Source: Cohnella algarum
GTDB taxonomy: Bacteria; Bacillota; Bacilli; Paenibacillales; Paenibacillaceae
Assembly: GCF_016937515.1 (NCBI RefSeq)
Contig: NZ_JAFHKM010000002.1
Coordinates: 558,001-622,000 of the forward strand
Direction: 5' to 3'
Length of the DNA stretch: 64,000 bases
Both the position numbers and the translations under genes were made by a program. The notes under the pieces were generated by a model that saw nothing but the letters and a program-made list of their open reading frames with translations, was not told the origin of the DNA and searched no databases. Shown here in pieces: positions 2,699-18,939 of this stretch (positions are counted from its first letter, which is position 1; each line of letters begins with the position of its first letter).

Positions 2699-3774
2699 AC
2701 CGTGACTCTCCAGCGCTCTTTGTTTTCTTCGAAGATGCCTTCGATGATCAGCCGAATATGGTTGAACTGCTGCTTCCATTCCGGGTAGTGCGATTGAAAC
2801 TTCGTCAAGTCCGAAACGTACCATTGGTGGTCGCCCGCGCGGGCCGTGTCCACGTACTGGTAGCTCAGCTTTCTTCCGCTGATTTCTTCGGTCAATTGAA
2901 TCGCTTCGAGCATCGACACGTTCGACGCGATTCCTCCGCCCAGATTGTAAACTTCCCCGCCGCGGCGCGGCCGTTCGAAGAAAGCATGGAAGGCCGAAAT
3001 CACGTCGCTGGAATGGATGACATCGCGCACTTGCTTGCCTTTATAGCCGAAGATCGTATAAGGCGTGCCGGTCATGACGCATTTGACCAAATAATTGATG
3101 AAGCCGTGAAGCTGAACCCCCGATTGCTTCGAGCCGCTAAGCACGCCGCCCCGGAAGCAAACGGTCTTCATATTGAAATACCGGCCGTATTCCTGCACCA
3201 GCACGTCGGCCGCGAGCTTGGAGGCGCCGAACAGGGAATGCATGCTTTGATCGACGCTCATTTCCTCAGAAATGCCGTTCTCGAACGGGTGGCCGGCCGC
3301 CACTTCCCAGCGCGTATCACTTTCGACGAGGGGCAGCGTATTCGGCCGGTCTCCGTACACCTTGTTCGTGGACGTAAAGATGAATACGGCCTCGGGGCAA
3401 TGCTGCCTCGTCGCTTCGAGCAGGTTCAGCGTGCCGTTCGCATTCACCCCGAAATCCGTGAACGGATCGCGGGCGGCCCAATCGTGGGAGGGTTGGGCGG
3501 CGGTATGAATAATGAGGGAAATATCGCTTCCGTACTTCGCAAAAAGCTCGTTGACGCCTTCCTGATTGCGGATATCGATATTGTAGTGCTCGTATTTGGA
3601 GCCGAGGGTTGCCTCCAGCCGCTGCCGATTCCACACGGTCGAGCCTTCCGCGCCGAAAAACGTTTCCCGCATGTTGTTGTCGATTCCGATGACCTTGTAT
3701 CCCGCTTTCGTGTAAAACTCCGTCGCTTCCGAGCCGATCAGGCCGGCCGATCCCGTAATGATGACGATGGACAT
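2695..3774 (-). CDS. NAD-dependent epimerase, CDP-paratose/tyvelose 2-epimerase-like
   Basis: Extended SDR of 359 aa. The NAD motif GSAGLIGSE is near residue 8. The segments [17 protein letters not shown] and STNKVYGD match the CDP-paratose 2-epimerase-like subfamily. The usual YxxxK pair appears as Phe-Gly-Ala-Ser-Lys, so Phe replaces the general-acid Tyr; I believe this is a subfamily trait but cannot verify it here. The ATG at 3774 has AGGAGGAG nine nt upstream. The gene overlaps the next by 4 nt. No CDP-sugar synthase is in the window, so a different nucleotide sugar may be the real substrate. Confidence 0.7.
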
Positions 3775-3791
3775 GATGGTTCTCCTCCTGT

Positions 3792-4984
3792 TTATTGGCT
3801 TTTTTTAAGTTTTTTCGGGTAATGGGTCAAAACGCGATCGTAAATGTTCATGAGCAGGTCGTAATGCCGCTCCGCCGTATACTTGTTTTCAAATTCCTTT
3901 CGGGCATTTGTTCGCATACGTCGCAGCTTTTCCTCGTCGCTCAGCAGCGCGTCAAGTTTCATGGCCAAATCCGAAGCGTTTCCCGGCTCGAAGTAGCTTC
4001 CCGTCACCCCGTCGCGGACGATGCTCTCCATCGCTCCCAATTTCGAAGCCACGACCGGAGTGCCTTTCGCGTAGGCTTCGATGATCGTCCTCGGCAGCCC
4101 CTCGTACCAAACGGACGGAAAAACGAGCAGCCTTGCTTCCCCCATCACATCGTAAACTTCTTCGATCGATTTGGAGCCGACATACTCGATATTCGGATTC
4201 GTTTCGGCCGCCTGAAGCGCTAGTTCGGTGAGCGGCCCGTCGCCGGCGATTTTTAACCGGATCGGGTTTTTCAGCAGCTTCCATGCGGCCAGCAGCGTAT
4301 CGATTCCTTTTTCCGGGGACAATCTGCCGACGTACAATACATAGTCGCCTTCGCCGCTTCCCTCGCCCGGATCGGGCACGAAATTCGGCTTCACCGCAAT
4401 CCGGTCGGATGGAATGCCCCCTTGGATCAGCTTGTCGCGGGCGAATTCCGTCAACGCCACGTACATATCCACTTTATCCCGCCAGGTTCCCAAAGCGCGG
4501 TGCGTCGTCAACATCGCCGCGATCGTCGCGCTTCCCGCCAGGCTTTCCTTGTAGCATTTGTTTTTGACGCCCGGCCACGGCACGAACTTCCCCATGCAAT
4601 CCTCGCAAACCCGGCCTTCGCGGAAAAACAGCGCGTTGGGGCATAGCAGCCGGTAGTTCCTGATGTTCTGGATGACCGGAACGCCCATTTCGTTGGCAAC
4701 GTAATAGATGGAAGGCGAGATGAGGGGAAACGTGTTCTCGCATTCGATCAGATCGATCCGCTGTTCGGTCAGCAATTTTTTGAAATATTTGGAGGTTTCT
4801 TTCGACCAGATCGTTTTCGCGGCCGTGCGGATTTTTCCCAGCTGCTCGATTCTCGTATTCGATTCCGTATGAATGACGACGTGGTGCCCCTTATCCTTCA
4901 AAAGCTTGTTCTTGGCGGCGAACGAGCCGTCCTCTCCCCCCGAATCAAATACGTATTGTGAATCGACAAAATCTTAAGGGGCAT
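3792..4984 (-). pseudogene. Glycosyltransferase family 4, frameshifted at a G6 run
   Basis: The 5' part starts at ATG 4984 (MPLKILSIHNTYLIRG), overlapping the upstream epimerase stop by 11 nt. It then leaves frame at a run of six G on the coding strand (C6 at 4936-4941) and stops shortly after. The rest of the protein is open in another frame down to 3792, with YRLLCPNALFF, YVGRLSPEKGID and the donor-binding segment SVWYEGLPRTIIEAY. One extra G in the run restores I-R-G-G-E-D-G-S and a continuous protein of about 397 aa, normal for GT4. This is a true mutation, a phase-variable tract, or a sequencing error. The 3' open frame alone (ATG 4901, 369 aa) would lack the first Rossmann strand and is unlikely to be active. 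Confidence 0.8.
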
Positions 4985-5948
4985 AATTGACCACTCCGTG
5001 CTTTTCGACGTACCACTCGACGAATTTGGCGATTCCGTCCTTGATGTTCGTGCGGGGAGCGTAATGAAGCAGACGGGAGGCTTTGCCGATGTCCGCATAC
5101 GTTTGGGGAACGTCTCCTAACTGATGGTCATGCTGCTCGATCAACGCTTTTTTTCCGCATGCTTCTTCAAGGGTGCGGATAAGCTCATTCAGGGTGACCG
5201 AATCGTTATTCCCCAGATTAATGACCTCGTATAACGATTGATCGTAATCCATGGCATGGCGAATGCCCGAAACGATGTCCTCGATGTAGGTGTAATCCCG
5301 ACGGGTTTCTCCGTTGCCGAACTTCGGAATCGGTCTGCCTTCGAACAAGCAGCGCGTAAATTTATGTATGGCCAGATCGGGGCGCTGTCTCGGACCGTAA
5401 ACGGTAAAGAAACGCAGGGCAACGAACCGGATGTTATACAGGGAACTGTAGACATGGCCCAGCAGTTCGCCGCTTACCTTCGTGCTTGCGTAAGGACTGA
5501 TCGGGTTCAGGACATCATCGTCCTCGCGCCAGGGGACGTTCGGATTCACGCCGTACACGCTGCTCGACGATCCGAAGACGAACTGGGGAACTCCCCGCGT
5601 CCTGGCCCACTCGAGAAGCCGCTGCGTCCCTTCGACGTTCGTCCGGTAATAGCCGACCGGATCTTCGATGCTCGGACGGACGCCTGCTTTTGCCGCCAAG
5701 TGAACGATAACGTCGTAAGGGGCGTCCAGCTCGCTGCCGATTTGATCCAGCTGCAATAAATCGCCTTTCACGAATCGGAAATTTTCGTGCTTCAGCGCCT
5801 TCTCCATATTGCTCTCTTTAATGGACGAATCGTAGAACGGATCCCAATTGTCGAGGCAAGTGACCTCCCAGCCGCCTTCGTCCAGCAAGGCTTCAATCAA
5901 ATGACTCCCGATAAACCCGCTGCCTCCCGTAATAAGCGCTCTTTTCAA
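4974..5948 (-). CDS. UDP-glucuronate 4-epimerase
   Basis: Extended SDR of 324 aa that interconverts UDP-glucuronate and UDP-galacturonate. It begins MKRALITGGSGFIGSH. The segment LDNWDPFYDSSIKESN is typical of the CapI/LspL glucuronate epimerases, and SSSVYGVNPNVPW, YASTK and RFFTVYGPRQRPD follow in family order. The start is TTG at 5948, supported by GAGGAGG nine nt upstream. It follows the initiating sugar transferase by 83 nt, and its stop lies inside the next gene. Together with the dehydrogenase at 1-879 it implies galacturonic acid in the exopolysaccharide. Confidence 0.85.
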   Translation of the reverse strand: MKRALITGGSGFIGSHLIEALLDEGGWEVTCLDNWDPFYDSSIKESNMEKALKHENFRFVKGDLLQLDQIGSELDAPYDVIVHLAAKAGVRPSIEDPVGYYRTNVEGTQRLLEWARTRGVPQFVFGSSSSVYGVNPNVPWREDDDVLNPISPYASTKVSGELLGHVYSSLYNIRFVALRFFTVYGPRQRPDLAIHKFTRCLFEGRPIPKFGNGETRRDYTYIEDIVSGIRHAMDYDQSLYEVINLGNNDSVTLNELIRTLEEACGKKALIEQHDHQLGDVPQTYADIGKASRLLHYAPRTNIKDGIAKFVEWYVEKHGVVNYAP

Positions 5949-6031
5949 ATCGATACGCCTCCTCTAGGCTTGATTTTATTGGTCTTTCAGCACGCCTCCG
6001 TGCGCAGGGGAGCAGCTAATGAAGGCAGCTA

Positions 6032-6682
6032 TTAATAGGTATTGCTTTTAAAAATAACCTTGACGGTTCGAAAAATGATTTTCAGGTCCATCGCGAAAGA
6101 GATTTGATCGATATAATAAAAATCATGATGCAAATTTTCGTGGATCGGCTTTTTCCGGTCCTCGCTCGTCTGCCAAAGCCCCGTTATCCCGGGCTTGACC
6201 AGAAAGCGATAGTAATCCTGATTCGAAAAATGGGCCTCGACGATCGATCTCTGCTCCGGACGCGGGCCGATAAAGCTCATGTTTCCCTTCAAAATGTTGA
6301 AAAGCTGCGGCAGCTCGTCAAGACTTGTTTTCCGGAGGAACCGGCCGACTCTCGTGATCCGCGGGTCGTTCCCCCTTTCCGGAGAACGCCCCTGCATGGG
6401 GACGTCGGCATACATCGTCCGAAACTTATAAATCGTAAACACTTTTCCTCCGGCGCCGATCCGCTCTTGCCTGAAAATTCCGTTCCCCTTCGAATCAAGC
6501 CGGATAAGCACATAGATGAGCGCTAGCAGCGGGGAAAGAACGACGATGAGCACAAAGCCGAGTACTCTATCCAAAGCGGGCTTGACGATTTTACAGTACG
6601 TTTTATTCGTCGGATGAATCCTTGGCAGCTCGAGAGGCAGATCCGAGGGATGCAACGGGGATGAATTTTTCAAGATTTCCAT
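6032..6682 (-). CDS. Undecaprenyl-phosphate sugar phosphotransferase (initiating)
   Basis: Small bacterial sugar transferase (PF02397 type, 216 aa) that transfers a sugar-1-phosphate to undecaprenyl phosphate and starts repeat-unit assembly. One membrane-inserting hydrophobic helix is at about residues 37-60 (VLGFVLIVVLSPLLALIYVL). It is followed by the cytosolic catalytic core with KFRTMY, TSLDELPQLFNILKG and FIGPRPE, containing the Asp-Glu pair. The long N-terminal four-helix domain of WbaP/CpsE proteins is absent, so this is the minimal monotopic form. The first sugar is not predictable. Confidence 0.88.
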   Translation of the reverse strand: MEILKNSSPLHPSDLPLELPRIHPTNKTYCKIVKPALDRVLGFVLIVVLSPLLALIYVLIRLDSKGNGIFRQERIGAGGKVFTIYKFRTMYADVPMQGRSPERGNDPRITRVGRFLRKTSLDELPQLFNILKGNMSFIGPRPEQRSIVEAHFSNQDYYRFLVKPGITGLWQTSEDRKKPIHENLHHDFYYIDQISFAMDLKIIFRTVKVIFKSNTY

Positions 6683-6712
6683 TGCCGCAATTACCCTCCC
6701 TTCTAACGATGG

Positions 6713-7954
6713 TTAAACGACAAACGCTTTTTCGAGCTCCTCCAATTCCGAATCCTTTGCGCCTGCCGGTTCGGAAATCCGTTCCTCTCCGAGGAGCAGC
6801 CCGATTAATCGATCCAGGTCCTCGTCCTGCTTGCTGGAGACGGCTTCGTACACTTCCCTTCCTCTTCTGGCGTACGCTTCGCGAATGTCCGAATCGAACA
6901 GGACGCTGATGATTCTGTTTTTCATCTCCTCGATGCTGAACGGGTTGAAATAGATGACCCCGTCGCGGCAAACCTCGGAAATGGAGGTGATGGAGGAGGC
7001 GATCACCGGCGTTTCGTGCCGCATTCCTTCGAGCGGAGGATAGCCGAATCCTTCGTTAAGCGTCGGATAAACGAAACAGAAGGCCTGACGGTAGAAAAAA
7101 TCGAGCTGTTCCGAGCTTACGTAATCCAGGAACACGAATTGCTCCGGATTTCGGATGGCTTTTTTGTACATGTCGCTATTTTTCACGCCAAGAACGACCG
7201 TTTTGACATTCGTCCGGAACGCGCCGTAAATTTCATCGAGAGCCCGAGTCGCCCTGTATCCGTTCTTCAGCCATCGGTTGCCGCTGATCAGCAAAAAATA
7301 GCCGCGCGGCTCGACGCCATACGGCGACAAATCGAAAAACTTGTCGCTTTCCTCGGTTTTTCGGGGACTGTACATGACCTTCACGTTCGAGGCGTCGAAC
7401 TCGGGAAAATAGTTGATCAAGCTGTATTTCGTATGGAAGGAAGGCACGACGATTTCGAGCGGGGCTTTCGACTTCAACAGTTTCTCGATCTGTTCTTTTT
7501 TGTGCCGGACGTAAGAAGCTCCGAACAAGCTTTTCAGAACGAACTTCATTTTTTCGGAAACGCCCTGGCGATACTTGCCTTCGTAGCGGTCGGTCGGAAG
7601 CTCGATTTCTCGCAGCCCGTGAATCGTATAAATCAGTTTGACGTCCGCCCGCTCGATCTTAAGATCGTGGTACCGATAAGGCAGGGCGCTGTAAAAGACG
7701 GAATAGTTCCCCTTGTTCAGCAAGCCCGACAGTTCCTCGTTCGTGCTGAGCGCGATCAGCTCGAGACGGTTGCGTTCCACCAGGCCGCGAATTTCCTCGT
7801 CCAATTCCAATCCGCTGTCGTAAAAGCAGGCCAGGCTGCCGGCGTCGGCTTTGGCGACAAGATGCTTGAATACGATTTTCGCGTACTCCCCGCCCCCGTG
7901 AAATTTCGATTCTCCGCAAGGCTGGGTCGCGATCAGATCAAACAATAGTTTCAT
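6713..7954 (-). CDS. Glycosyltransferase (GT-B fold, GT4-like)
   Basis: Cytosolic transferase of 413 aa for repeat-unit assembly. The C-terminal donor domain shows LLISGNRWLKNGYRA and then PTLNEGFGYPPLEGM, the EX7E-type motif of retaining GT4 enzymes, followed by TPVIASSITSISEVC. The N-terminus MKLLFDLIATQ includes a HGGGEYAK loop. GAGGGTGA lies 8 nt before ATG 7954. The start lies 17 nt inside the flippase gene, showing tight coupling. The last 25 residues are acidic and look like a tail outside the fold. Confidence 0.8.
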   Translation of the reverse strand: MKLLFDLIATQPCGESKFHGGGEYAKIVFKHLVAKADAGSLACFYDSGLELDEEIRGLVERNRLELIALSTNEELSGLLNKGNYSVFYSALPYRYHDLKIERADVKLIYTIHGLREIELPTDRYEGKYRQGVSEKMKFVLKSLFGASYVRHKKEQIEKLLKSKAPLEIVVPSFHTKYSLINYFPEFDASNVKVMYSPRKTEESDKFFDLSPYGVEPRGYFLLISGNRWLKNGYRATRALDEIYGAFRTNVKTVVLGVKNSDMYKKAIRNPEQFVFLDYVSSEQLDFFYRQAFCFVYPTLNEGFGYPPLEGMRHETPVIASSITSISEVCRDGVIYFNPFSIEEMKNRIISVLFDSDIREAYARRGREVYEAVSSKQDEDLDRLIGLLLGEERISEPAGAKDSELEELEKAFVV

Positions 7955-9206
7955 GCAAAATCACCCTCTCTCGATTCGACACCTTCCGCATTTTGGAGGT
8001 GATGAGCCGCAAAGCGATCCATTGCGCGACCAACCGCGCGAAGCTTGACACCACCAGGGAGTAAGCGGCTCCTTCCACCCCGTAGGCCGGCACCAAAAAA
8101 AAGCAGGAGACGATGACGGCCGCGGTCCAAATCAGGCCCAAATAGGGCTGAACGCCGAATTTTTTCGTCGCGGAAAGCCCGTAGCCCCCGAATACCGCAA
8201 CGTAATCGATCAGACCCGCTACCGTGACGATGAGGAATACGGTCGAATACTGCGCATACTCCGCGGTGTACAGGAGCGCAAGGATCGTCTTGCCGGCGAC
8301 CGCGGCCGCGGCAATGCCCAGAAGCCCCAACGCCAATCCCAGTCCCATCAGCTTGTACGTGAGCCGGTAAAAATGCCCGAACTCCTTATCGTCCAGGCTT
8401 TTCGCCAAACGAAACGTCGCCGCCTGCCCTAAAGCGGAAACGACCGTGCTGCCCGCAACCAGAAGGTAGGAAACAGCGGTAAACAGCCCCAATTGCTCGA
8501 CTCCGACCGAACGCTCGATGAAAAATCGGGGTATATTCGTGTTCAGCGAAGTCAGCATAAACACGATTCCCAGCGGCAAGCAGATTTTTACGACCCGGAG
8601 GCACTCTTTCCACCGAATTCGGGGAAATACGGCCTCGTAGCGTTTCGTTTTCGGCAGATCGTAAATGAACAGGGAGATCAGCCAGGAAACCATCCATCCG
8701 AACGCGGCCCACACGAGACTGCCGCTCGTTTGCAGGATCGCGGCGAATACCGGAATCGCGATCGTGCCCTTGATGATTTTCGAGATGGCCAGCGCTCTCA
8801 TGTTCTCATGCTTTTGAAAGACGCCATGACTTACGTCGCTTGCGCTTTCCACCGCTTTGGCCAACAAGACGAACCCGAGGACCATTGCCGTTTCGGAATC
8901 GTAGCCGAACGCGAACACGGCGATAAGCGCCAGCAGAACGGAAACGACGATCGTAAGCAAACGAAGGCCCATCAAGTCCCGGAACAGATATTGATTCTGC
9001 GTATCGGTCGCTTGAACGACCCGAAGCTGGAGGTTGGTCAGCGTCATGATCGGCGTGACGATGGCAAGGCAGATCGAAAATTGACCGACCATCGCGGCGG
9101 ACCCGAACTTGGCGATAACGACCAGAAGCAGCCATTGCGCTGCGGCGAAATACACATTTCCGATCAAGCTCCAGGACAAGCTTCGCCGCAAAGAGCCGAA
9201 CTTCAT
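7938..9206 (-). CDS. Wzx-like polysaccharide flippase
   Basis: Integral membrane protein of 422 aa with about 12 hydrophobic segments along its whole length, matching the Wzx/MATE-like polysaccharide export family (PF01943/PF13440). It is expected to flip lipid-linked repeat units to the outer face of the membrane. The basic N-terminus MKFGSLRRSLSWSLIGN is typical. Its ATG overlaps the manC stop in ATGA at 9203-9206. No Wzy polymerase is seen in the window, so one should lie past the left edge if this is a complete Wzx/Wzy system. Confidence 0.8.
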   Translation of the reverse strand: MKFGSLRRSLSWSLIGNVYFAAAQWLLLVVIAKFGSAAMVGQFSICLAIVTPIMTLTNLQLRVVQATDTQNQYLFRDLMGLRLLTIVVSVLLALIAVFAFGYDSETAMVLGFVLLAKAVESASDVSHGVFQKHENMRALAISKIIKGTIAIPVFAAILQTSGSLVWAAFGWMVSWLISLFIYDLPKTKRYEAVFPRIRWKECLRVVKICLPLGIVFMLTSLNTNIPRFFIERSVGVEQLGLFTAVSYLLVAGSTVVSALGQAATFRLAKSLDDKEFGHFYRLTYKLMGLGLALGLLGIAAAAVAGKTILALLYTAEYAQYSTVFLIVTVAGLIDYVAVFGGYGLSATKKFGVQPYLGLIWTAAVIVSCFFLVPAYGVEGAAYSLVVSSFARLVAQWIALRLITSKMRKVSNRERVILHETIV

Positions 9207-10231
9207 GTAACGACCTCGGCCGCCCGCAGTTTCAATTGCTGAACGATGTCCTTCACTTTCTGGGACTGGCTTTTTTTGCAGATCAGCAAGAAATTGTCCT
9301 TCTCGACAATAATCAGGTCGTCCACGCCGATTAACGCCACGTTTCGATCCTGCTCCAAATAAACCAAATTTCCCGTCGAATCGATCAGCACTTCATCGGA
9401 AAACGTAATATTTCCGTTCTCGTCGGGCCTGTATTCGTCAAAAAACGAGTCGAAGCTTCCAAGGTCGTTCCACCTGACATCCATCGGCACGACGGAAACC
9501 CGTCTCGAACGTTCCATGACCCCGTAATCGATCGAAATGCCTGGCGTGTTTTCGTATTTTTGCTGAACGGACGGGAGGAGAAACGCATCGTAAACGTCGG
9601 GACAATGTTCCTTGAGCTCCTCCAAAAAAACGCCGGTTTGAAACGCGAAGATTCCGCTGTTCCATAGACAGCCTTCCAGGATCAGCTCCGCCGCCAGCGC
9701 TTCGGACGGCTTCTCCTTGAATTCCTCCACGCGGAATCCGATGAAATCGGGGTCTCCCGGCTTTATGTATCCATACCCGGAATGGGGCTTGCTTGGCTTG
9801 ATTCCGTAAATGACCAGCCGTTGATCAGTGAGCGGCAGGGACAATTCGATTCTATCCGCGAATTTCCGATCGTCCTCGATAATGTGATCCGAGGGGAGGA
9901 CCAGGGCCAATTGATTTCCTTTCGCGTGAATGTGCTGCGCAGCATAAGCGATCGCGGGCAACGTGTTTTTGCTCGATGGCTCGACCAGGACGTTCGGGGC
10001 CGGGATCCGGAACCCCATTTGCTCGATTTGCTGGTGTACGATTCCCGCATACGAGCGGTTTGTCACGACGTATACATTTTCAAGCGGGGCAAGCTTCAGA
10101 CAGCGGTCAACCGTCATTTGGAAAATCGTTTTCGGCATACCCTTCAATTTCACGAATTGTTTCGGGAAGTCGGAATGGCTTAACGGCCAAAGCCTCGTTC
10201 CGCTTCCTCCGGCTAGCAGGATGATGTTCAT
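9203..10231 (-). CDS. manC: Mannose-1-phosphate guanylyltransferase
   Basis: Makes GDP-mannose from mannose-1-phosphate and GTP. The N-terminal nucleotidyltransferase motif GGSGTRLWPLS follows at once after ATG 10231; the ORF could extend upstream to 10300, but that part crosses a terminator hairpin and has no similarity. VLPSDHII, VEPSSKNTLPAIA and EKPS are also present. At 342 aa it lacks the C-terminal phosphomannose isomerase domain of bifunctional ManC/AlgA. It is the first sugar gene after the EAR-like leader, so its expression would be the first to depend on antitermination. GDP-mannose points to mannose, or a sugar derived from it, in the polymer. Confidence 0.88.
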   Translation of the reverse strand: MNIILLAGGSGTRLWPLSHSDFPKQFVKLKGMPKTIFQMTVDRCLKLAPLENVYVVTNRSYAGIVHQQIEQMGFRIPAPNVLVEPSSKNTLPAIAYAAQHIHAKGNQLALVLPSDHIIEDDRKFADRIELSLPLTDQRLVIYGIKPSKPHSGYGYIKPGDPDFIGFRVEEFKEKPSEALAAELILEGCLWNSGIFAFQTGVFLEELKEHCPDVYDAFLLPSVQQKYENTPGISIDYGVMERSRRVSVVPMDVRWNDLGSFDSFFDEYRPDENGNITFSDEVLIDSTGNLVYLEQDRNVALIGVDDLIIVEKDNFLLICKKSQSQKVKDIVQQLKLRAAEVVT

Positions 10232-10255
10232 CTGTATCCACTCCGTAATTTTTAT

Positions 10256-10312
10256 AAAAAGCCTGACCTTTGTCTCCCTATCCTTGCAATAGAGCGGCAA
10301 AGGTCAAGCTTT
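10256..10312 (-). terminator. Intrinsic terminator/attenuator before manC
   Basis: On the minus strand AAGCTTGACCTTTG pairs with CAAAGGTCAGGCTT across a 25-nt loop, followed by TTTTTAT. The hairpin lies 25 nt before the manC start and after the first two genes of the operon. A terminator inside a polysaccharide operon needs read-through, which fits the structured RNA just upstream. Confidence 0.75.
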
Positions 10313-10319
10313 CCCAAAG

Positions 10320-10484
10320 AAAGGGATAATCGGGGCATTTAACCCCCCCTCACGTCATACCCTCGACGATAAACGTCTAAGGTCCGATGAACCCACAGCA
10401 TGACCGAGTACCTGCAGTGATAAAGGAGGCAGCAGGCTTTCCCTGATGGCCGCTTCCGCCATCCGCGTTCGCGAGAACCTAGCA
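10320..10484 (-). ncRNA. EAR-like (eps-associated) antitermination RNA candidate
   Basis: A 190-nt gap separates the tyrosine kinase gene from manC on the minus strand. It has several local helices: GATGG/CCATC around GGAAGC, CCTGC/GCAGG, GGTC/GACC and GACG-TTTAT-CGTC. In Bacillales the EAR element is a processive antitermination RNA lying within eps/capsule operons, between the kinase-type second gene and the third gene; position, size and the terminator directly downstream all match. The identification rests on position and structure; I could not run a covariance model. Confidence 0.6.
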
Positions 10485-10486
10485 AG

Positions 10487-11143
10487 CTATAAAATTTTTG
10501 AATATTTCGTCTTATTCAAAACCACGCCCAGTACGCGGGCATTCGCATGCTCAAGGGACTGCCTTACTTTTTTGAGCAATGCTTTTTTGGTCTTGCCTTG
10601 GCTTGCGACGATAAACACGCCGTCGCATAACGAACAGATTTTCAGGCCGTCGGTAACCGTCAGCAGCGGCGGCGAGTCGAACAGGACGATATCGAAGTGT
10701 TGCTTGATGTCTGAAATGAGGTCCGGCAAATATTCTGAAGCGAGCAGATCGGATGGATGCAAAGGCGTGATACCGGAAGTCATGACGGATAGCCTGGGGA
10801 TTTGGGTTGCCTGAATAACCGACTTCCATCCCTTTTCGTTCAATAACGCGTTCGTCAGACCGGATACATTGGAAAGCGAAAACAGGTGATGCAGGGACGG
10901 GTCTCTTATATCCCCGTCGATCAGAAGCGTTTTTTTCCCTTCTTGCGCATAGGCGACAGCCAGATTGGCAATCGTGGTCGACTTCCCGTCGCCGTTGCCG
11001 GGCGAAGTTACCATGATCGTTTTGACGGGATCCTCGCCGGATGCAAACTGGATATTCATTCGAAGAGCCCGATAAGCCTCGGATAAAGATGAGCTTGGGT
11101 TGCGGTGCACGATCAGTTTCGAATTAGCGGTTTGCGGCGGCAT
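10487..11143 (-). CDS. CpsD/CapB-family tyrosine kinase
   Basis: Cytoplasmic BY-kinase of about 218 aa that controls polysaccharide chain length with the Wzz-like partner. Walker A is SPGNGDGKST, Walker A' is LLIDGDIRDP and Walker B is IVLFDSPPLL. The C-terminus (NKTKYSKIL) has a single Tyr instead of the usual cluster. The start is taken at ATG 11143, with AGGTGA nine nt upstream; GTG 11155 is an in-frame alternative. It overlaps the chain-length gene by 20 nt. It corresponds in position to epsB of Bacillus. Confidence 0.88.
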   Translation of the reverse strand: MPPQTANSKLIVHRNPSSSLSEAYRALRMNIQFASGEDPVKTIMVTSPGNGDGKSTTIANLAVAYAQEGKKTLLIDGDIRDPSLHHLFSLSNVSGLTNALLNEKGWKSVIQATQIPRLSVMTSGITPLHPSDLLASEYLPDLISDIKQHFDIVLFDSPPLLTVTDGLKICSLCDGVFIVASQGKTKKALLKKVRQSLEHANARVLGVVLNKTKYSKIL

Positions 11144-11885
11144 ATGTCTGTTCACCTGCTTTGTGAGATGGTTGGGAAGGGAAATTGTTGCTCCTGCGAG
11201 GCTTCAAGTCCTTGCTGCGAATCACTTGAATGACGGACAAAGTCGGATAACCGACCGTTTTTTCGATATCGGCTTCCATTTTCACCGTATCGTCCAGGTA
11301 ATTGCGCAAAATGACAAAACCGATAGATATCATGCACGATAGAAGGAACGCCAGCACAACATTAAGCATCGGATTTGAAGCCAAATTGACGGGAGGAGCG
11401 TTCGGATCCGCCGGAGTGAGAATCGTTACGTTATCCAGCTTCATAATATTCGGAATTTCGCGGCGGAACGTTTCGGCCACCTCGTTGGTCAACCTGACGG
11501 CCGTTTGGTAATTCTCGTTGTAGACCGTCACCGTCATGATTTGCGAGTCTTCCGACGAGCCGGCCGCTACGGATCCCATCAGCTGCTTGCCGGTCATGTT
11601 CAAATCCGGATTGGCTTCGGCAACCTTGTTCAGGATGGCCTCGGACAAGATGATTTCTTTGTACGAGTTGATTAGCCGAATGTTCGTGTTGATCGAGTTA
11701 ATGTCGATCGAAGTGGTACCGTTGTTGGGATTGGCATAGTTAATAAGTAGTTTTGCAGAAGCCCGGTAGTATGGCGAAGCATTGTTGTAACTGTATAACG
11801 CGGTAGCAAGACATGAGATGATGACGACGAGTGCGATTAGCCACAGGTGTTTTCTGAGTAAGGCAAGTACTTCCTTTAATTCCAT
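11124..11885 (-). CDS. Wzz/YveK-like chain-length determinant, kinase modulator
   Basis: Membrane protein of 253 aa with transmembrane helices at about residues 14-34 and 174-196 and an extracytoplasmic domain between, the Wzz (PF02706) layout. The proline before TM2 lies in TPADPNAPPVNLASNP. The cytoplasmic C-terminal tail (after about residue 200) would activate the kinase encoded next. The ATG at 11885 has GGAGGATTAGGA just upstream. It is the first gene of the operon and corresponds to epsA. No kinase domain is fused. Confidence 0.87.
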   Translation of the reverse strand: MELKEVLALLRKHLWLIALVVIISCLATALYSYNNASPYYRASAKLLINYANPNNGTTSIDINSINTNIRLINSYKEIILSEAILNKVAEANPDLNMTGKQLMGSVAAGSSEDSQIMTVTVYNENYQTAVRLTNEVAETFRREIPNIMKLDNVTILTPADPNAPPVNLASNPMLNVVLAFLLSCMISIGFVILRNYLDDTVKMEADIEKTVGYPTLSVIQVIRSKDLKPRRSNNFPSQPSHKAGEQTYAAANR

Positions 11886-11967
11886 TCCTAATCCTCCGCT
11901 CGAAAAAAAGATTCAGCAATCTCGGCAGTTTTTTGTTACAATAAGGAACATTTCGGAGCTATTTATA

Positions 11968-11996
11968 AGATTATGATACAATTTGTAACTTGTCAA
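11968..11996 (-). promoter_or_regulatory. eps operon promoter with palindromic operator in the spacer
   Basis: On the minus strand TTGACA (11991-11996) and TAATCT (11968-11973) are separated by exactly 17 nt. The spacer, read on the plus strand as TGATACAATTTGTAACT (11974-11990), is a copy of the palindrome TGATAC-N5-GTATCA with two mismatches in the right arm. A bound protein would block RNA polymerase. The predicted leader to the Wzz-like start is about 75 nt. Confidence 0.75.
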
Positions 11997-12010
11997 CTGC
12001 TTTGCCGATC

Positions 12011-12925
12011 TTATCTTTCGTTTTTTTGAGAAACGAGCAGCGGCTCCGCTCTTTCGCGTTCAATGATTTCTTCCAGAGCTGTAAGCAGCGGATGACGGAG
12101 CTCGTGATTTTTAATCGCGAAATCCAGCGTCGTTAAAATGAATCCCAGCTTTTCGCCGACGTCGTACCGCTTTCCTTCGAATTCATAGGCGTATACCCCC
12201 TGGTCCTGGTTCAGCCTTTCGATCGCGTCCGTCAGCTGAATTTCGCCGCCCGCTCCGATTTCATGCTTTTCAAGGTAATGAAAAATATCCGGCGTCAATA
12301 CGTAGCGGCCGAGAATGGCCAAATTCGACGGCGCTTTTCCTCTCGCCGGCTTTTCTACGAATTTGTTCACCTGATAGAGTCGGCCGTTGGCAAGCAACGG
12401 GTCGACGATCCCGTACCGATAGGTCTCTTCGATCGGCACGGACTGAACGCCGATAACGGATTGCTGGAGCCGCTCGAATTGATCGACCAATTGCCGGATG
12501 CACGGAGTTTCGGCCTCTACGATGTCGTCGCCGAGCAAAACGGCAAACGGTTCGTCGCCGATGAATTTGCGGGCGCACCAAATGGCATGGCCCAATCCTT
12601 TCGCTTCTTTTTGACGTATGTAATGGATCTCGACCTTGGAGGACTTGATCACTTCGCCAAGCAAATCGACTTTTCCCTTTTGCATCAGCATTTGCTCGAG
12701 CTCGAACGCGTTGTCGAAATGATCCTCGATGGCCCTCTTGCCTTTTCCCGTGACGATAATGATATCCTCGATGCCGGAATTGATCGCTTCTTCGACAATG
12801 TATTGAATAGTCGGCTTGTTGACGATCGGAAGCATTTCTTTCGGCATCGCTTTGGTCGCGGGCAGAAACCGGGTTCCCATTCCAGCGGCGGGTATAATCG
12901 CTTTTCGAACTGTTCTCATCCTCAT
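12011..12925 (-). CDS. galU: UTP-glucose-1-phosphate uridylyltransferase
   Basis: Makes UDP-glucose from UTP and glucose-1-phosphate. The protein of 304 aa starts (M)[21 protein letters not shown], the nucleotide-binding loop, followed by [21 protein letters not shown] and [10 protein letters not shown], all standard for GalU. Two in-frame ATGs (12925 and 12919) are possible; AAGGATGG suits either. It lies downstream of its own promoter region, is followed by 125 nt before the eps operon, and feeds the UDP-glucose dehydrogenase. Palindromic operators lie in its promoter region. Confidence 0.92.
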
Positions 12926-13210: not shown

Positions 13211-15163
13211 ATGAGTTTAATTGCCGGTGTCGTAAAAACGGACCAAGCTGTCGATTTTCCGGCAGATGACGGACTTCGCCTCATGCAGGCGATGCGCAAC
13301 TATCCCGCCGACGATTCGCGGGTCTGGCACGACCGTTTCGCGTTTCTCGGTTGCCATGCTCAGCGGGTGACTCCCGAATCGGTTCATGAAGTTTTGCCTC
13401 TATATAAAGAAGAACTCCGATTGGCCATTACGGCGGACGCCTTCCTGGACAACCGGGATGAATTGTGCGACAGGCTGCGGATCCCTTTTCCCCTTCGAAA
13501 CGGAATGTCCGACAGCGAGCTGATTTTGCTGGCTTACGAAAAATGGGGAGAAGATTCCGCCAAATTTTTGCTCGGCGACTTTGCCTTCGTCATTTGGGAT
13601 GCGGACAAACGCCAGCTGTTCGGCTCGCGGGATTTGACCGGCAGCCGGACGCTGTACTACGCTTTCGGACGGAAACGGGAAAAGTTCGTCTTTTGTTCCG
13701 CCGTCGCGCCGATGTTTTCCGTTCCGGGCATCGAGAGGGAGCTTGACCGCGACTGGCTGGCCGACTTTCTGGCTCTCCCTACGGCTCTCGACTCGACCGA
13801 TCCCGGCTCAACCGCTTATCGGCACATCGGCCAGATCCCGCCGGGGCACTCCTTCACCCTGAGAAACGGCAGGCTCTCGCTTACCCGATACGGGTCGTTG
13901 GTATCCGAAGAACGGCTGAACCTGAGCTCCGACGGGGAATACGAGGAAGCGTTTCGCGACGTGTTCGGCAAGGCGGTTTCCGCCAGGCTTCGGACGCACA
14001 AACAGGTCGGAGCTACGCTTAGCGGGGGACTCGATTCCGGAAGCGTCGCGAGCTTCGCGGCCATGGCGCTGCGGCATGAGGGAAAGACGCTTTATACCTA
14101 CAGCTCGGTGCCCGCGCCCGACTTCAAGCCGTGGACGGCTCCTCACATGGTCCCCGACGAGCGGCCGTTCATCCGGGAGACGGTCCGGCATGTCGGCAAC
14201 ATTCGGGACCGCTACCTGAATTGCCCCGGACGGAGCCCGTATTCGGAAATCGACGAGTGGCTTCGGATGCTGGAGATGCCGTATAAATTTTTCGAAAACT
14301 CCTTCTGGATAAAAGAAGTTTTCGAATCGGCCCGTTCGGAAGGGATCGGCGTGCTGCTGACGGGGGCCAAGGGAAACAACACCGTATCCTGGGGCTCCGC
14401 GGCGCAATACTGCGTTTTTCTGCTGAAAAAGTGGCAGTGGATTCGCTTCTATCGGCAAGCCACCCTGCTCAGCAAGCAGATGAAAATGCGCAGATCGCGG
14501 CTCTTCCCCAAGATCGGCATGCTGGCCGCTCCCTTTCCAGGCGGCTTTCCGTTCTCCGGAGCAAAGCCGGAGCGGACGTTTCCGTCCATGATTCATCCGG
14601 ACTTCGCGGCGAAAACCCAAGTGTTCGAAAAGAAGGGCGAGCTGTTCGGCCGACTCGAGAACCCCAACGAGAGCATGCTGGAGGAACGGCAAAATTACTT
14701 GGGCAACCTGGCCCTGCTGAGCATGCAGGGCATGTCGGGCGCCAAGCTTTCGCTTCGCTACGGACTGTGGGAACGCGATCCGACGTCCGACCCGAGGGTC
14801 GTTCGTTTCTGCTTGTCCGTTCCGATCGAGCAGTATGTTCTGAACGGGGTCGGACGCTCGTTGATCCGCAGGGCAACCGAGCGGTACTTGCCCGACAAGA
14901 TTCGGCTGAATATGCGCTTCAAAGGCGTGCAAGCGACGGACTGGGTTCACCGGATGCTGCCGAGCTGGCCGGAATTTGTCCGGGAAGCGAAGGCGATTGG
15001 CGACAGCGCGATTGCGGCCGAGTGCTTAAACGTCTCTCAAATTCGAAGCTCGCTGGTCAAACTGGAGGCGCAGCCGCCAAAGCCCGAGCTTGCCGTAGAC
15101 CCCGACATGAAATTGGTCATGCGCGGCCTGATTGTGAACCGGTTTTTGAAAAGCTTCGAATAA
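13211..15163 (+). CDS. Lasso peptide cyclase (asparagine synthetase-like C protein)
   Basis: Adenylates the ring Asp side chain of the precursor and closes the macrolactam with the core N-terminus. The protein of 650 aa has an N-terminal Ntn-like domain that starts MSLIAGVV, so the Cys2 nucleophile of true glutamine-dependent asparagine synthetases is missing, as known for lasso C proteins. The ATP-pyrophosphatase loop LSGGLDSGSVA is at residues 270-280. ATG 13211 is preferred over ATG 13184 because GAGGAGG ends 4 nt before it and the known family start (MxxIAG) falls there. It is the first gene of the cluster and ends 25 nt before the precursor. Housekeeping asparagine synthesis is unlikely given the missing Cys and the B1/B2/ABC genes downstream. 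Confidence 0.9.
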   Translation: MSLIAGVVKTDQAVDFPADDGLRLMQAMRNYPADDSRVWHDRFAFLGCHAQRVTPESVHEVLPLYKEELRLAITADAFLDNRDELCDRLRIPFPLRNGMSDSELILLAYEKWGEDSAKFLLGDFAFVIWDADKRQLFGSRDLTGSRTLYYAFGRKREKFVFCSAVAPMFSVPGIERELDRDWLADFLALPTALDSTDPGSTAYRHIGQIPPGHSFTLRNGRLSLTRYGSLVSEERLNLSSDGEYEEAFRDVFGKAVSARLRTHKQVGATLSGGLDSGSVASFAAMALRHEGKTLYTYSSVPAPDFKPWTAPHMVPDERPFIRETVRHVGNIRDRYLNCPGRSPYSEIDEWLRMLEMPYKFFENSFWIKEVFESARSEGIGVLLTGAKGNNTVSWGSAAQYCVFLLKKWQWIRFYRQATLLSKQMKMRRSRLFPKIGMLAAPFPGGFPFSGAKPERTFPSMIHPDFAAKTQVFEKKGELFGRLENPNESMLEERQNYLGNLALLSMQGMSGAKLSLRYGLWERDPTSDPRVVRFCLSVPIEQYVLNGVGRSLIRRATERYLPDKIRLNMRFKGVQATDWVHRMLPSWPEFVREAKAIGDSAIAAECLNVSQIRSSLVKLEAQPPKPELAVDPDMKLVMRGLIVNRFLKSFE

Positions 15164-15188
15164 ATTAGCGTGAAAGGAGGTGAAATCG

Positions 15189-15362
15189 ATGAAAAAAATG
15201 TGGAAAGAGCCGCAAATAGAAGTACTTAACGTTCGGGAAACGATGCTTGGAACGGGTTCGACGAATGTGGACTGGGTTTGGGTTGGTTCCCAACTCGACG
15301 CCGATCTCTATGACGACGGTCAGCAGACGGGCGGCAACACCGGTCCTATTCTGGCTTCCTAA
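15189..15362 (+). CDS. Lasso peptide precursor, paeninodin-like, 38-residue core
   Basis: Protein of 57 aa. ATG 15189 lies 8 nt after AAGGAGG; the in-frame GTG at 15180 overlaps the ribosome site and is rejected. The leader MKKMWKEPQIEVLNVRETM has the conserved aromatic-x-x-Pro-x-hydrophobic element that binds the B1 protein, and Thr18 at the -2 position used by lasso leader peptidases. Cleavage after Met19 gives a core starting LGTGSTNVD, with Asp at core position 9, the same xGxG(x4)D pattern as paeninodin. The tail begins WVWVGSQLDADLYDD and ends GNTGPILAS, so the C-terminal residue is Ser, as in paeninodin. At 38 residues the core is much longer than typical (15-26) lasso cores, and Leu1 is uncommon. 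Confidence 0.88.
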   Translation: MKKMWKEPQIEVLNVRETMLGTGSTNVDWVWVGSQLDADLYDDGQQTGGNTGPILAS

Positions 15363-15383
15363 TCGTAGTTTCTAAGCTTCAAG

Positions 15384-15419
15384 CGGCCCTTATGCCTTCA
15401 GTTTTCGGGATAAGGGCCG
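15384..15419 (+). terminator. Stem-loop between precursor and kinase genes
   Basis: CGGCCCTTAT pairs perfectly with ATAAGGGCCG across a 16-nt loop, 22 nt after the precursor stop. The following bases (TCTATTTC) make only a poor U-tract, so it should act as a partial terminator or an mRNA 3'-end stabiliser. This would keep the precursor transcript in excess over the enzyme genes. Confidence 0.6.
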
Positions 15420-15443
15420 TCTATTTCATGACCGACTGAGGCG

Positions 15444-16388
15444 GTGGTATTCATTCGTTTCGAACCTAAATTCCGCTATACCGCTTTCGGCTTCCGGATC
15501 GCCAGCGAGATCGAGTTTCCGGAGCTGCTTCCCGGTTCCGACCGCGGCCCTGCGGATATCGAAATCGGAATGGCCGATCTACTGGACGCATGGAAGGAAG
15601 AGGAAACGGCCAATCGCATTTATCGGGTCAAGGATAACCGGGTTCTTTTTCATTTTCCCGACGTCGCCATCGCTTCGATCAGCGACGGCCGTAAAATCGG
15701 CGTTTGCCCGCTGCCCGGCGTCGACGAACGACTCGTTCGCCTTTACATACTCGGGAGCTGCATGGGAGCCGTTCTGTTTCAAAAAAGGATTCTTCCGCTT
15801 CACGGCAGCGCAATCGTGATCGGAGGCAGAGCCTACGCGATCGTCGGAAATTCGGGCGCCGGAAAATCCACGCTCGCGGCTGCCTTCGTCGAACGAGGGT
15901 ATTCCCTCCTGACCGACGACGTCATTGCGGTTTCCGTTTTGCCGGAAGCCGGAGGCGTTCCGCACGTCATTCCGGCTTATCCGCAGCAGAAGCTATGGCA
16001 AGAAAGCATCTCCTTGCTTGAGATCCAGGCAAGCGAATATCGTCCTTTATGGAACAAAGCGGACAAATTCGGCATTCCCGTCGTTTCGAAATTCGCGAGC
16101 GAGCCGATCCCGCTGGCGGGAATTTTCGAGTTGACGGCGGCCAAGCAATCGGGCGTGCAGCTGCATCCCGTCGAACGCCTCGAAAGCTTGCCGCTATTGC
16201 GTTACCATACGTACCGCAACTTTTTGATCGCTCCCTTGCATCTGGAGCAATGGCACTTCGACGCGTCGGTCGCGATCGCGCGCGCGACTCCGATTTACCG
16301 GCTGACTCGTTCTTCCGGCGAATATACCCTGCACGAGCTGCCGGGCCGCATTCTTCAAACCGTCGAAAAGGAGAGTATCGTGTTATGA
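15444..16388 (+). CDS. HPr kinase-like lasso precursor serine kinase
   Basis: Protein of 314 aa with an HprK/P-type P-loop, GNSGAGKST at residues 135-143, a His-Gly-Ser just before it (LPLHGSAIVIGG) and LTDDVIAV after it, as in the C-terminal domain of HPr kinase. The paeninodin cluster encodes a homologue (PadeK) that phosphorylates the C-terminal Ser of the precursor; the precursor here also ends in Ser. True HprK usually also has a regulatory N-terminal domain and sits with lgt/ppaX, which is not the case here. The start is GTG 15444, the first possible codon after an in-frame stop, but its ribosome site (GAGG) is very close. The stop overlaps the next start in ATGA. Confidence 0.85.
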   Translation: MVFIRFEPKFRYTAFGFRIASEIEFPELLPGSDRGPADIEIGMADLLDAWKEEETANRIYRVKDNRVLFHFPDVAIASISDGRKIGVCPLPGVDERLVRLYILGSCMGAVLFQKRILPLHGSAIVIGGRAYAIVGNSGAGKSTLAAAFVERGYSLLTDDVIAVSVLPEAGGVPHVIPAYPQQKLWQESISLLEIQASEYRPLWNKADKFGIPVVSKFASEPIPLAGIFELTAAKQSGVQLHPVERLESLPLLRYHTYRNFLIAPLHLEQWHFDASVAIARATPIYRLTRSSGEYTLHELPGRILQTVEKESIVL

Positions 16389-16675
16389 AGGACCTTGCCG
16401 CAATACAGCCGGACACCACGGTTTGCCAGGTTCAAGGGCACGTGACGAGCGATATGTCCGGCGAAAAAGTGATGATGAGCATCCGGAACGGCAACTACTA
16501 CAACCTGGGGGAAACGGGGGGAAGGATTTGGGAGCTCCTTCAAACCCCGACGACGGTCAGACGCATTGTCGATACCCTCGTTCAGGAATACGACGTTGAT
16601 CCGCTGTCATGCGAGCAGCATGTGATTTCCTTCCTGCAGCGTCTTGTCGACGAACAGCTGATTCAAGCGGAGTAA
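16385..16675 (+). CDS. PqqD-like RiPP recognition element (lasso B1)
   Basis: Protein of 96 aa that binds the leader of the precursor and hands it to the peptidase. It has the PqqD-family wing: a beta part (SGEKVMMSIRNGNYYNLGETGGRIWELL) in two strands, then three helices (TVRRIVDTLVQEY; CEQHVISFLQRLVDEQLI). ATG 16385 overlaps the kinase stop in ATGA. The leader-peptidase gene follows after 6 nt. B1 and B2 are separate proteins here, the usual arrangement in Bacillota lasso clusters. Confidence 0.88.
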   Translation: MKDLAAIQPDTTVCQVQGHVTSDMSGEKVMMSIRNGNYYNLGETGGRIWELLQTPTTVRRIVDTLVQEYDVDPLSCEQHVISFLQRLVDEQLIQAE

Positions 16676-16681
16676 ACGGCA

Positions 16682-17146
16682 ATGAGGAAATGGAAAAAGT
16701 TTCTCTCCCTTCGCTCCGATAAAAAGAAGCTTCTGTTGGAAGCCCTTCTCTACTTGGGCTGGGCCCGCATCCTGAAGGCGCTGCCCTTTTCGCGGGTCGC
16801 GCCGATGCTGGGGGAGCCGATGACGGAAACCTCCTACGACCGCAACCTCGCGAACGAAAGGATCGCCCTGCAAATATCCCAGGCGATTCGGGTCGCCAGC
16901 AAGCATACGTGGTGGGAAAGCAAGTGCCTGGTTTCGGCGATCGCCGGCATGAAAATGCTGCAGCGGCGGCGAATCGGCAGCACGCTTTATATGGGAACGG
17001 CCCGGGACCCATCGGGCAAATTGGTGGCGCACGCCTGGCTCCGCAGCGGCGGACTGATTCTTACCGGAGCCGGAGGGCTGGAGCAGTATACCGTTGTCGC
17101 CAAATTCGGCCAACGGATGCCGGAAACGAAAGGGATTCCCACATGA
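16682..17146 (+). CDS. Lasso leader peptidase (transglutaminase-like B2)
   Basis: Cysteine protease of 154 aa that cuts the leader from the precursor before ring closure. Cys82 lies in WWESKCLVSAIAGM and His117 in LVAHAWLRSGG, the spacing expected of the Transglut_core3 fold; the acidic third residue is not obvious. The start has AAGCGGAGTAAACGGCA upstream and the stop overlaps the ABC transporter start in ATGA (17143-17146). A basic, amphipathic N-terminus (RKWKKFLSLRSDKKK) may contact the membrane or the transporter. Confidence 0.88.
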   Translation: MRKWKKFLSLRSDKKKLLLEALLYLGWARILKALPFSRVAPMLGEPMTETSYDRNLANERIALQISQAIRVASKHTWWESKCLVSAIAGMKMLQRRRIGSTLYMGTARDPSGKLVAHAWLRSGGLILTGAGGLEQYTVVAKFGQRMPETKGIPT

Positions 17147-18939
17147 AACTCATCGTAAACCTTTGGAAGCAGCTGCATGCCTTTGCCGGATTCAAACTTT
17201 ATCTTAACCTTTTTACGATGCTGCTCAGCAGTCTCGCGAACGGGATCGGGCTGCTGCTCCTGATTCCGATGCTTCATTTTGTCGGCGTCTCCAGCATTCA
17301 GTTCGGAAATATTCCGTTGGTTTCATCCTTGTTCGAGTCGTTAAGCGCGTTTACGATCGATATCAATTTGCCGATCGTCCTGGCGATCTATCTGCTGCTC
17401 ACGATCGGACAAACGCTCCTGCAGCGGAATCAGGTGCTGCTGGATACCCGGATTCAGCAAGGCTTCAGCCGGCATCTCAAGGTGAAAGCCTACGGGGCGC
17501 TGCTGCAAGCCAATTGGGAGTTTTTCCTTAAAAAAAGAAAATCCGATTTCAATCAACTGTTGACGACCGAAATCGGGCGCGTCGCCCAAGGCGTATCCCT
17601 GATTCTGGGCTTCGTTTCGGCCTTGATCTTTTGTACGATTCAAATCGGAATCGCCTTCTGGTCGTCCGCCGCCCTGACCTCGTTCGTTCTGATCAGCGGC
17701 TTGATTCTTGCGTACTTCTCGCGCAAGGGCGTGTCGAAGGCCAAGCGGCTCGGCAAACAAACGACGGAGCTCTCCTTGGACTATTTTTCGGGACTTTCGG
17801 ATCAGTTGAACGGGATCAAAGATATAAAAAGCAACCGGCTTGAGGTTTCCCATCTGAATTGGTTTCAGTCCGTCAGCGTGCAGATCGAGCGAAACGTGAC
17901 CCGTTTCGTTCAACTGCAAATGAATACGAAGTTTTTCTACAACGTCGTCTCCGCGCTGCTCATGGTTGCGTTTATTTTTATCGCCCGCGTGCTCTATCAA
18001 GTCGAAATCGAGCAGTTAATTTTGATCGTCCTCATTTTCATCCGGTTATGGCCCTTCGTCATTTCCATTCAGAACAATATCCAGCAGCTCGGCTCCGTGC
18101 TTCCCGCTTTCAAGAGCCTGGACGATTTGCTTAACGAGTGCAAGCTTCATAACGAACGGTTTCCGGCGGAAACGAAATCCCCGGTCCGGCCGCTGCCCGT
18201 CGCGCAAGGGATCGAATGCAGCGGAATTTGCTTTCGCTACGATCCCGATTCGCCCGTCTACGCATTGAACGACATCTCGCTGCGAATCGCCGCCAATCAA
18301 ATGACCGCCGTTGTCGGCAAGTCCGGCGCGGGGAAAAGCACGCTGATCGATATCCTTACCGGTCTGCTCCGGCCCGAGCGGGGCCGGCTGCTCGTCGATG
18401 GCGCGGCCATTACCGATGAAACGATTCCTTCGTACCGGCAATCGATCGGTTACGTTTCGCAGGACCCGTTCCTGTTTAACGCCAGCATCCGCGAAAACCT
18501 GCTGATGGTGAAGCCCGATGCGACGGAAACGGAGATTTGGGAAGCTTTGCGATTTGCCGCATCCGACGAATTCGTACGGAACCTTCCCAACGGCGTCGAT
18601 ACCGTCATCGGCGATCGGGGAACGCGGCTGTCGGGGGGCGAGCGTCAACGGATCGTGCTGGCGCGGGCGATTTTGAAAAAGCCGGAAATTCTCATCCTGG
18701 ACGAAGCCACCAGCGCGTTGGATCACGAGAACGAAGCGAAAATTCAAGCGGCCCTGGAACGGCTGAAGGGAAGCATGACCATCATTGTCATCGCCCATCG
18801 CCTTTCCACCATTCGCAACTCGGACCAGGTCGTCGTTTTGGAAAACGGCCGAATCGTCGAACAAGGAGGATATGTTCAGCTTTCCAATGACAAAAAGGGA
18901 ACGTTCCGAACGCTGTTGGAATATCAGATGGGGAGTTAA
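17143..18939 (+). CDS. ABC exporter for the lasso peptide (D protein)
   Basis: Half-size exporter of 598 aa with an N-terminal membrane domain of about six helices (residues 15-330) and a C-terminal ATPase. Walker A is GKSGAGKST near residue 393, the Q-loop is in YVSQDPFLFN, the signature is LSGGERQR near residue 495, Walker B is ILILDEATSALD and the H-loop is IVIAHRLSTI. No N-terminal C39 peptidase domain is present, which fits a separate B2. It exports the mature peptide and probably gives self-protection; no isopeptidase gene is found. A terminator follows. Confidence 0.9.
   Translation: MKLIVNLWKQLHAFAGFKLYLNLFTMLLSSLANGIGLLLLIPMLHFVGVSSIQFGNIPLVSSLFESLSAFTIDINLPIVLAIYLLLTIGQTLLQRNQVLLDTRIQQGFSRHLKVKAYGALLQANWEFFLKKRKSDFNQLLTTEIGRVAQGVSLILGFVSALIFCTIQIGIAFWSSAALTSFVLISGLILAYFSRKGVSKAKRLGKQTTELSLDYFSGLSDQLNGIKDIKSNRLEVSHLNWFQSVSVQIERNVTRFVQLQMNTKFFYNVVSALLMVAFIFIARVLYQVEIEQLILIVLIFIRLWPFVISIQNNIQQLGSVLPAFKSLDDLLNECKLHNERFPAETKSPVRPLPVAQGIECSGICFRYDPDSPVYALNDISLRIAANQMTAVVGKSGAGKSTLIDILTGLLRPERGRLLVDGAAITDETIPSYRQSIGYVSQDPFLFNASIRENLLMVKPDATETEIWEALRFAASDEFVRNLPNGVDTVIGDRGTRLSGGERQRIVLARAILKKPEILILDEATSALDHENEAKIQAALERLKGSMTIIVIAHRLSTIRNSDQVVVLENGRIVEQGGYVQLSNDKKGTFRTLLEYQMGS

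Follow-up and report, generated by a model that had tools for sequence, protein, structure and literature searches.

A predicted six-gene lasso peptide cluster

The stretch of Cohnella algarum DNA analyzed here, 64,000 nucleotides in length and hereafter called the window (G000:C2:558001-622000), carries six co-directional genes on the + strand at positions 13211-18939. They had been proposed to form a lasso peptide cluster with its own serine kinase, and every gene of that original prediction is in place, each with a Pfam or NCBIfam family match. The first gene, C (13211..15163), encodes a lasso macrolactam synthetase resembling asparagine synthetase (PF00733, 8.3e-23), for which NF033535 is the best NCBIfam model. 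It is followed by A (15189..15362), encoding a 57-amino acid precursor peptide of the paeninodin family (NF033524), and by K (15444..16388), encoding an HprK-like peptide kinase (PF07475, 1.4e-7) with a GTG start whose position is approximate. B1 (16385..16675) encodes the PqqD-like recognition element (RRE; NF033536) of ribosomally synthesized and post-translationally modified peptides (RiPPs), and B2 (16682..17146) a transglutaminase-like leader peptidase with Cys82 and His117 (NF033537). The last gene, D (17143..18939), encodes an ATP-binding cassette (ABC) exporter (PF00005, 1.6e-35; PF00664, 4.6e-9), whose best NCBIfam models are of the HepA and MsbA types, with scores under their cutoffs. 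The frames of all six genes are open.

The gene set, the gene order, and the PadeA-type leader are shared with the paeninodin cluster padeCAKB1B2D of Paenibacillus dendritiformis C454, and the order C-A-K-B1-B2-D is the firmicute order published for paeninodin. ATGA overlaps were originally described all the way from the kinase to the exporter; they are present at the K/B1 and B2/D junctions and absent at B1/B2, where 6 bases separate the genes. A chance reading is excluded because family models, conserved order, and conserved residues in the relatives all agree. A TATAAT sequence resembling a −10 element was noticed only by eye at 13164-13169 and is absent from the output of the promoter scan.

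To collect relatives, we scanned a single genome for each species, which yielded 281 pattern-matching stretches, 259 of them encoding a K relative; the best 80 loci were analyzed. When A and nucleotidyltransferase (N) genes are not counted, the gene string is C-K-B1-B2-D in 25 loci and C-C-K-B1-B2-D in 15. K matches at E ≤ 0.001 occur in 266 of 294 related genomes, many of them weak, near E 1e-4, so that they may represent ordinary HPr kinases. Three genomes of the same genus as the window (G018, G022, and G036) have precursors identical to those of named Cohnella records (L086/L006, L087/L008, and L090/L007, respectively), which makes Cohnella the probable genus and agrees with the assignment of the window.

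The kinase and the terminal serine of its precursors

K scores 31.7 bits against PF07475, just under the Pfam HPr-kinase cutoff of 33.3. It nevertheless matches the predicted family, and its residues His120, Lys141, Asp158, and Asp159 are retained by all 88 aligned relatives. In the excerpts of a review available to us, His-Lys-Asp-Asp is the conserved and mutated set reported as catalytic for lasso kinases, and a paeninodin-type kinase is described as acting on the terminal Ser of the precursor. The same excerpts report that the kinase of the pseudomycoidin cluster psm (Bacillus pseudomycoides) adds one or more phosphates to the terminal Ser.

The window precursor also ends in Ser, as had been read from its translation. 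To place this residue in context, we considered 100 candidate open reading frames (ORFs) upstream of kinase genes, of which 83 (79 unique) have the leader pattern and 17 were dropped for lacking it. Three kinase genes are without any candidate precursor (L017, L027, and one of L072), and those of L004, L014 (second kinase), L031, and L067 have only pattern-less ORFs. The dropped ORF of L031 is a plausible atypical precursor with a terminal Ser. Among the pattern-matching precursors, 82 of 83 end in Ser (78 of the 79 unique ones). Position −2 is variable, the commonest residue being Pro (14 of 79), and Asp occupies core position 9 in 76 of the 79 unique precursors, as it does in the window core. 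The precursors share descent and are not independent rows; the conservation of the last residue is telling despite this kinship because the tails differ so much.

This conservation bears on whether the phosphate reaches the exported peptide. It could be transient, or the kinase could serve mainly as a maturation checkpoint, leaving the exported lasso peptide largely unphosphorylated. Excerpts of the review lend this idea some ground, since both forms of paeninodin were seen in E. coli and the phosphorylation yields were called low. A near-invariant terminal Ser argues instead for the importance of the modified residue, either in the final product or during its processing, and we regard a largely unphosphorylated product as quite unlikely. 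A peptide exported with its terminal Ser phosphorylated is the reading that we prefer.

A long predicted core and its counterparts in other genomes

The precursor scores 41.8 bits against NF033524 (cutoff 27). Its leader is of the WxxP type (WKEPQI), with Thr at the penultimate position. We placed the cleavage site by the penultimate-Thr rule given in the abstract of PMC10368454. Cleavage after the TM dipeptide would release a 38-residue core, LGTGSTNVDWVWVGSQLDADLYDDGQQTGGNTGPILAS, with a predicted Leu1-Asp9 ring and a C-terminal Ser. Paeninodin itself has a core of about 23 residues that begins with Ala1 and is closed between residue 1 and Asp9. The window core thus has a ring of the same kind, but it starts with Leu1 and is much longer; the median core among the 79 unique kinase-linked precursors is 25 residues.

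A core of this length is not unique to the window. Among 5.8 billion proteins, a search limited to shared exact words found a sole relative of A, P0002, which is 91% identical and has a core of equal length. A further search covered 394 genomes of the family and gave matches in 133; of the 12 loci returned, ten were examined (L132 and L134 were left out). One of these is the window's own, eight encode cores of 36-40 residues, and L133 encodes one of 24; all ten precursors end in Ser. Cys-free cores of 36-40 residues are present in at least eight other genomes. The window core and the eight long cores have the pattern xGxGxxxxDW in common, and seven of the eight, G027 being the exception, also contain G[GS]xLDx[DN]. 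In addition, six of the 79 unique kinase-linked relatives have cores of 38-42 residues, every one of them containing Cys. On these grounds we rejected the idea of a uniquely long core.

Long lasso peptides have been described before. In the passages of a 2026 JACS review that were available, pandonodin, 33 residues long with an 18-residue tail, is named for the longest lasso tail, and achromonodin-1, 30 residues long, for the largest lasso loop; these passages give no record for total lasso length. The predicted 38-residue product resembles both in being long and, if made, would be longer than either. The Cys-containing relatives, at up to 42 residues, would be longer still. To our knowledge, the pandonodin and achromonodin-1 clusters contain no kinase.

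Cyclase, recognition element, and leader peptidase

C scores 339.9 bits against the lasso cyclase model NF033535, whose cutoff is 525; two other cyclases of the family that we tested also fall under it (383.4 and 385.5 bits). The SGGLDS motif of C is intact and recurs unchanged in all 91 aligned relatives. The original prediction had singled out a cyclase without the amidotransferase Cys. The N-terminal GATase domain indeed lacks Cys2, which is a family trait rather than a peculiarity of this enzyme, because 87 of these 91 relatives have Ser at residue 2 and none has Cys there.

B1 scores 127.5 bits against NF033536 (cutoff 80). Compared with solved RREs, it is closest to the paeninodin-type PbaB1 (PDB entry 9x90, E 2.8e-27), with LppB (PDB entry 9x8z), the counterpart from clusters for linear polyphosphorylated peptides, far behind at E 0.024. 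B2 scores 99 bits against NF033537 (cutoff 33), and its Cys82 and His117 are kept by every one of the 58 aligned relatives. Family models for the C, B1, B2, and K proteins had been suggested with the original prediction as a check; B1 and B2 exceed the lasso cutoffs, and C and K hit the predicted families with scores under the cutoff.

No solved relative of B2 on which a catalytic triad could be mapped was found by sequence, and the whole words "triad" and "catalytic" are absent from PMC5067487.

A phosphorylated lasso peptide as the predicted product

Our analysis indicates that this is very probably a paeninodin-family cluster, whose 38-residue product would be, as originally predicted, a C-terminally phosphorylated lasso peptide. 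We base this on the gene content and order, the precursor model, the retained kinase residues, the closeness of B1 to the paeninodin-type RRE, the equal core length of P0002, and the terminal Ser and Asp9 that we observed across the relatives. By analogy with characterized relatives, the pathway, including the order of its steps, phosphorylation, threading, and export, would run as follows. B1 would bind the WxxP leader of A, and K would add a phosphate, or perhaps several, to the hydroxyl group of the C-terminal Ser while the precursor is still linear. Cleavage by B2 behind the TM dipeptide would then remove the leader, C would join Leu1 to Asp9 in a macrolactam that encircles the tail, and D would export the 38-residue phosphorylated lasso peptide.

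Four observations weigh against this reading. C and K score below the curated model cutoffs, a shortfall that C shares with both of the other family cyclases tested. The precursor of L049 (5683-5814), the only pattern-matching one of 83 without a terminal Ser, ends in Cys. The predicted core exceeds pandonodin and achromonodin-1 (33 and 30 residues), which bears on threading. Finally, B2 has Gly131 at His+14, a column occupied by Asp or Glu in 57 of the 58 aligned relatives.

The last two points would fit a degenerate cluster, or one that yields only a linear phosphopeptide, with B2 or C impaired or the core too long to thread. This possibility is opposed by the six open frames and by P0002, which keeps 91% identity and an equal length. 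The acid at His+14 is also missing from the B2 proteins of L136 (Ala) and L139 (Lys), so that it may be dispensable; for this reason, and because sequence searching yielded no solved B2 relative for mapping the triad, we rejected the loss of a putative catalytic acid at Gly131 as proof of a dead B2. Considering also the cores of 36-40 residues in at least eight other genomes, we judge degeneration to be highly improbable and retain a threaded, phosphorylated lasso peptide as the predicted product.

The missing nucleotidyltransferase gene

The product could also be modified beyond phosphorylation. We measured the distance between B2 and D for the 46 B2 genes of relatives that have D within 2500 bases downstream. 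The gap is 0.9-1.5 kb in 39 cases and less than 300 bases in seven, and all 39 of the longer gaps contain an N-like ORF. The window cluster contains no N gene, B2 and D overlapping, and differs in this respect from psm, which carries the nucleotidyltransferase PsmN.

Elsewhere in the genome, we found four NTP_transf_5 matches. Two have open frames and are far away (C2:3355242 and C2:5036122; contexts L119 and L120). The other two are two frames of one split gene (C2:556388-557133) beside a cluster that resembles those for linear polyphosphorylated peptides (LPPs), described below.

These data allow for a product that carries a sugar or a nucleotide on its phospho-Ser, added in trans by, for example, an NTP_transf_5 protein. 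The N-like ORFs of the relatives and the two open-frame genes speak for it, as does the PsmN-dependent addition of a hexose to pseudomycoidin recorded in excerpts of the review. Against it, the cluster lacks an N gene of its own, the two open-frame genes are distant from each of the genome's PqqD-type RREs, and the copy on the LPP side is split over two frames. A cluster without N would not be exceptional, given the seven of 46 relatives with D within 300 bases of B2 and the paeninodin order given in sections of PMC5067487, C A K B1 B2 D with no N gene. We consider further modification unlikely, and a peptide bearing phosphate on its terminal Ser remains the preferred product.

A hairpin downstream of the precursor gene

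The 81-base spacer between A and K contains a hairpin (15384..15419, + strand) that was identified by folding, its limits being read by hand. The spacer has a minimum free energy of −28.4 kcal/mol and a z score of −3.35. In the relatives, the 100 bases 3' of A have z < −2 in 58 of 80 cases (median −3.09). As controls, we used the sequence upstream of C, where 17 of 90 cases have z < −2 (median −0.66), and sequence inside K, where one of 83 does; the former is the fairer control because it is mostly non-coding. These results suggest that the hairpin is a shared element of the family. The consensus terminator scan listed none between A and K.

We infer that the hairpin may set a higher level of precursor mRNA than of enzyme mRNA, giving A in excess. 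Hairpin removal is among the expression strategies for astexin-1 listed in a table of PMC7549694. Titles and abstract openings of the literature yielded no report on hairpins after the precursor gene in the paeninodin family.

Variant layouts among the relatives

Ten of the 80 loci have the layout C-K-D without B1 or B2 in the fetched flank (L006, L007, L008, L015, L019, L041, and others). B1 and B2 matches over the cutoff are present in all 12 genomes searched, often on a contig other than that of the unit, suggesting that the peptidase and the RRE are shared in trans. Most of the 12 were picked for a C-K-D-type precursor or a C-A(-D) unit, the C-K-D layout itself being seen in named records that have this kind of precursor, and no base-rate genomes without such units were among them. 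By titles and abstract openings, no literature on shared or in-trans leader peptidases in the paeninodin family was found.

Three further units, in L137, L138, and as a second unit in L136, consist of C-A-D or C-A without a kinase, B1, or B2 of their own. Their precursors are close to that of the window and end in Ser, and their cyclases are 55-59% identical to C. The second L136 unit adjoins a complete cluster; the 16-kb stretches of L137 and L138 hold none. In seven other loci (L005, L035, L043, L046, L053, L071, and L074), one K-B1-B2 set serves two cyclases and two precursors. In each of these pairs, one precursor has a paeninodin-like AGPG core, and the other an NGPG core that contains two Cys and can reach 42 residues.

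An exopolysaccharide locus and an LPP-like cluster next door

The lasso cluster adjoins an exopolysaccharide locus on the − strand (894..12925) with genes for glycosyltransferases, a sugar transferase, a flippase, Wzz, an AAA_31 ATPase, and sugar-nucleotide enzymes. Of the ten proteins tested, nine match a Pfam family; for the genes at 9203-10300 and 12011-12925, the names come solely from reading the translations.

The far side of this locus is flanked, some 0.7-6.5 kb upstream of the window, by an LPP-like cluster, presumably for a linear phosphopeptide (L118 11520-17313, corresponding to C2:551520-557313; L118 is C2:540001-559500). It comprises an RRE, a kinase, a signal peptidase, a precursor, and the split NTP_transf_5 gene. 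The best solved relative of its RRE is LppB (9x8z, 3.3e-9), with PbaB1 at 2.4e-4. Its kinase has no Pfam match, and its matches to HprK-related models all stay under the cutoff (29.7 of 200 bits); a weak match to K in its own genome, L002 (C2:554049-554222), falls within this gene. The signal peptidase likewise has no Pfam match, its best model being of the archaeal type and below the cutoff (36.3 of 51.85 bits). The precursor, YEAPAVLQVVPIRFETAFS, matches by eye nine of the 11 fixed positions of the LPP pattern YxxPxVLxHQxIxFETxxS, which sections of PMC13381572 give together with a rule for discriminating W from Y leaders. The W leader of the window and the Y leader of the LPP-like precursor are consistent with that rule. 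The window cluster itself is not of the LPP type, which has no cyclase, a YxxP + FETxxS leader, and an archaeal-type signal peptidase; it has C, B2, and a WxxP leader. An ABC-2-like pair is present at L118 9286-11032, and reading of the ORF list showed no MsbA-like exporter beside the LPP-like cluster.

A similar arrangement is known from P. alginolyticus, in which a pba lasso cluster and an lpp cluster, with W- and Y-type leaders, respectively, both lie near a polysaccharide locus, according to the sections of PMC13381572 available. In C. algarum, by comparison, about 14 kb of polysaccharide genes separate the nearest ends of the two clusters, and the nucleotidyltransferase gene on the LPP side is split over two frames.

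Immunity and biological meaning

The original prediction held that no isopeptidase gene is present and that the exporter is probably the only immunity. The first part extends to the whole genome (98.8% complete), in which no lasso isopeptidase scores over the cutoff, the best match reaching 23.8 bits against 400. Sub-cutoff matches to the isopeptidase model also occur in 11 of 14 control genomes, none over the cutoff. The second part found no support of its own, and no toxicity to the producer is established, because the biological roles of paeninodins, like those of LPPs, were stated as unknown in 2026 (sections of PMC13381572). Export may nonetheless protect the producing cell.

The window cluster is new within the known paeninodin family; the occurrence of lasso and LPP clusters beside capsule or polysaccharide loci was already reported in 2026 (sections of PMC13381572). 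A wider view, which we offer as a doubtful and speculative one, is that the long cores mark a long-tailed, Cys-free, terminally phosphorylated subgroup (36-40 residues; xGxGxxxxDW, mostly G[GS]xLDx[DN], and a Ser end) whose members would rank with the longest known lasso peptides and might be the longest without disulfides. Its modular C-A(-D) units would use a kinase, an RRE, and a peptidase encoded elsewhere, and the phosphate would be a point of attachment or activation in exopolysaccharide biology.

For the family, our data add to the evidence that kinase-linked lasso precursors of Bacillota keep a terminal Ser. They also provide a concrete test case for long cores, a 38-residue core found again in P0002 and encoded beside a polysaccharide locus and an LPP-like cluster. 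With two PqqD-type RREs and one B2-type match in all, the C. algarum genome offers a simple host in which to test whether the lasso and LPP-like systems act jointly with the polysaccharide.

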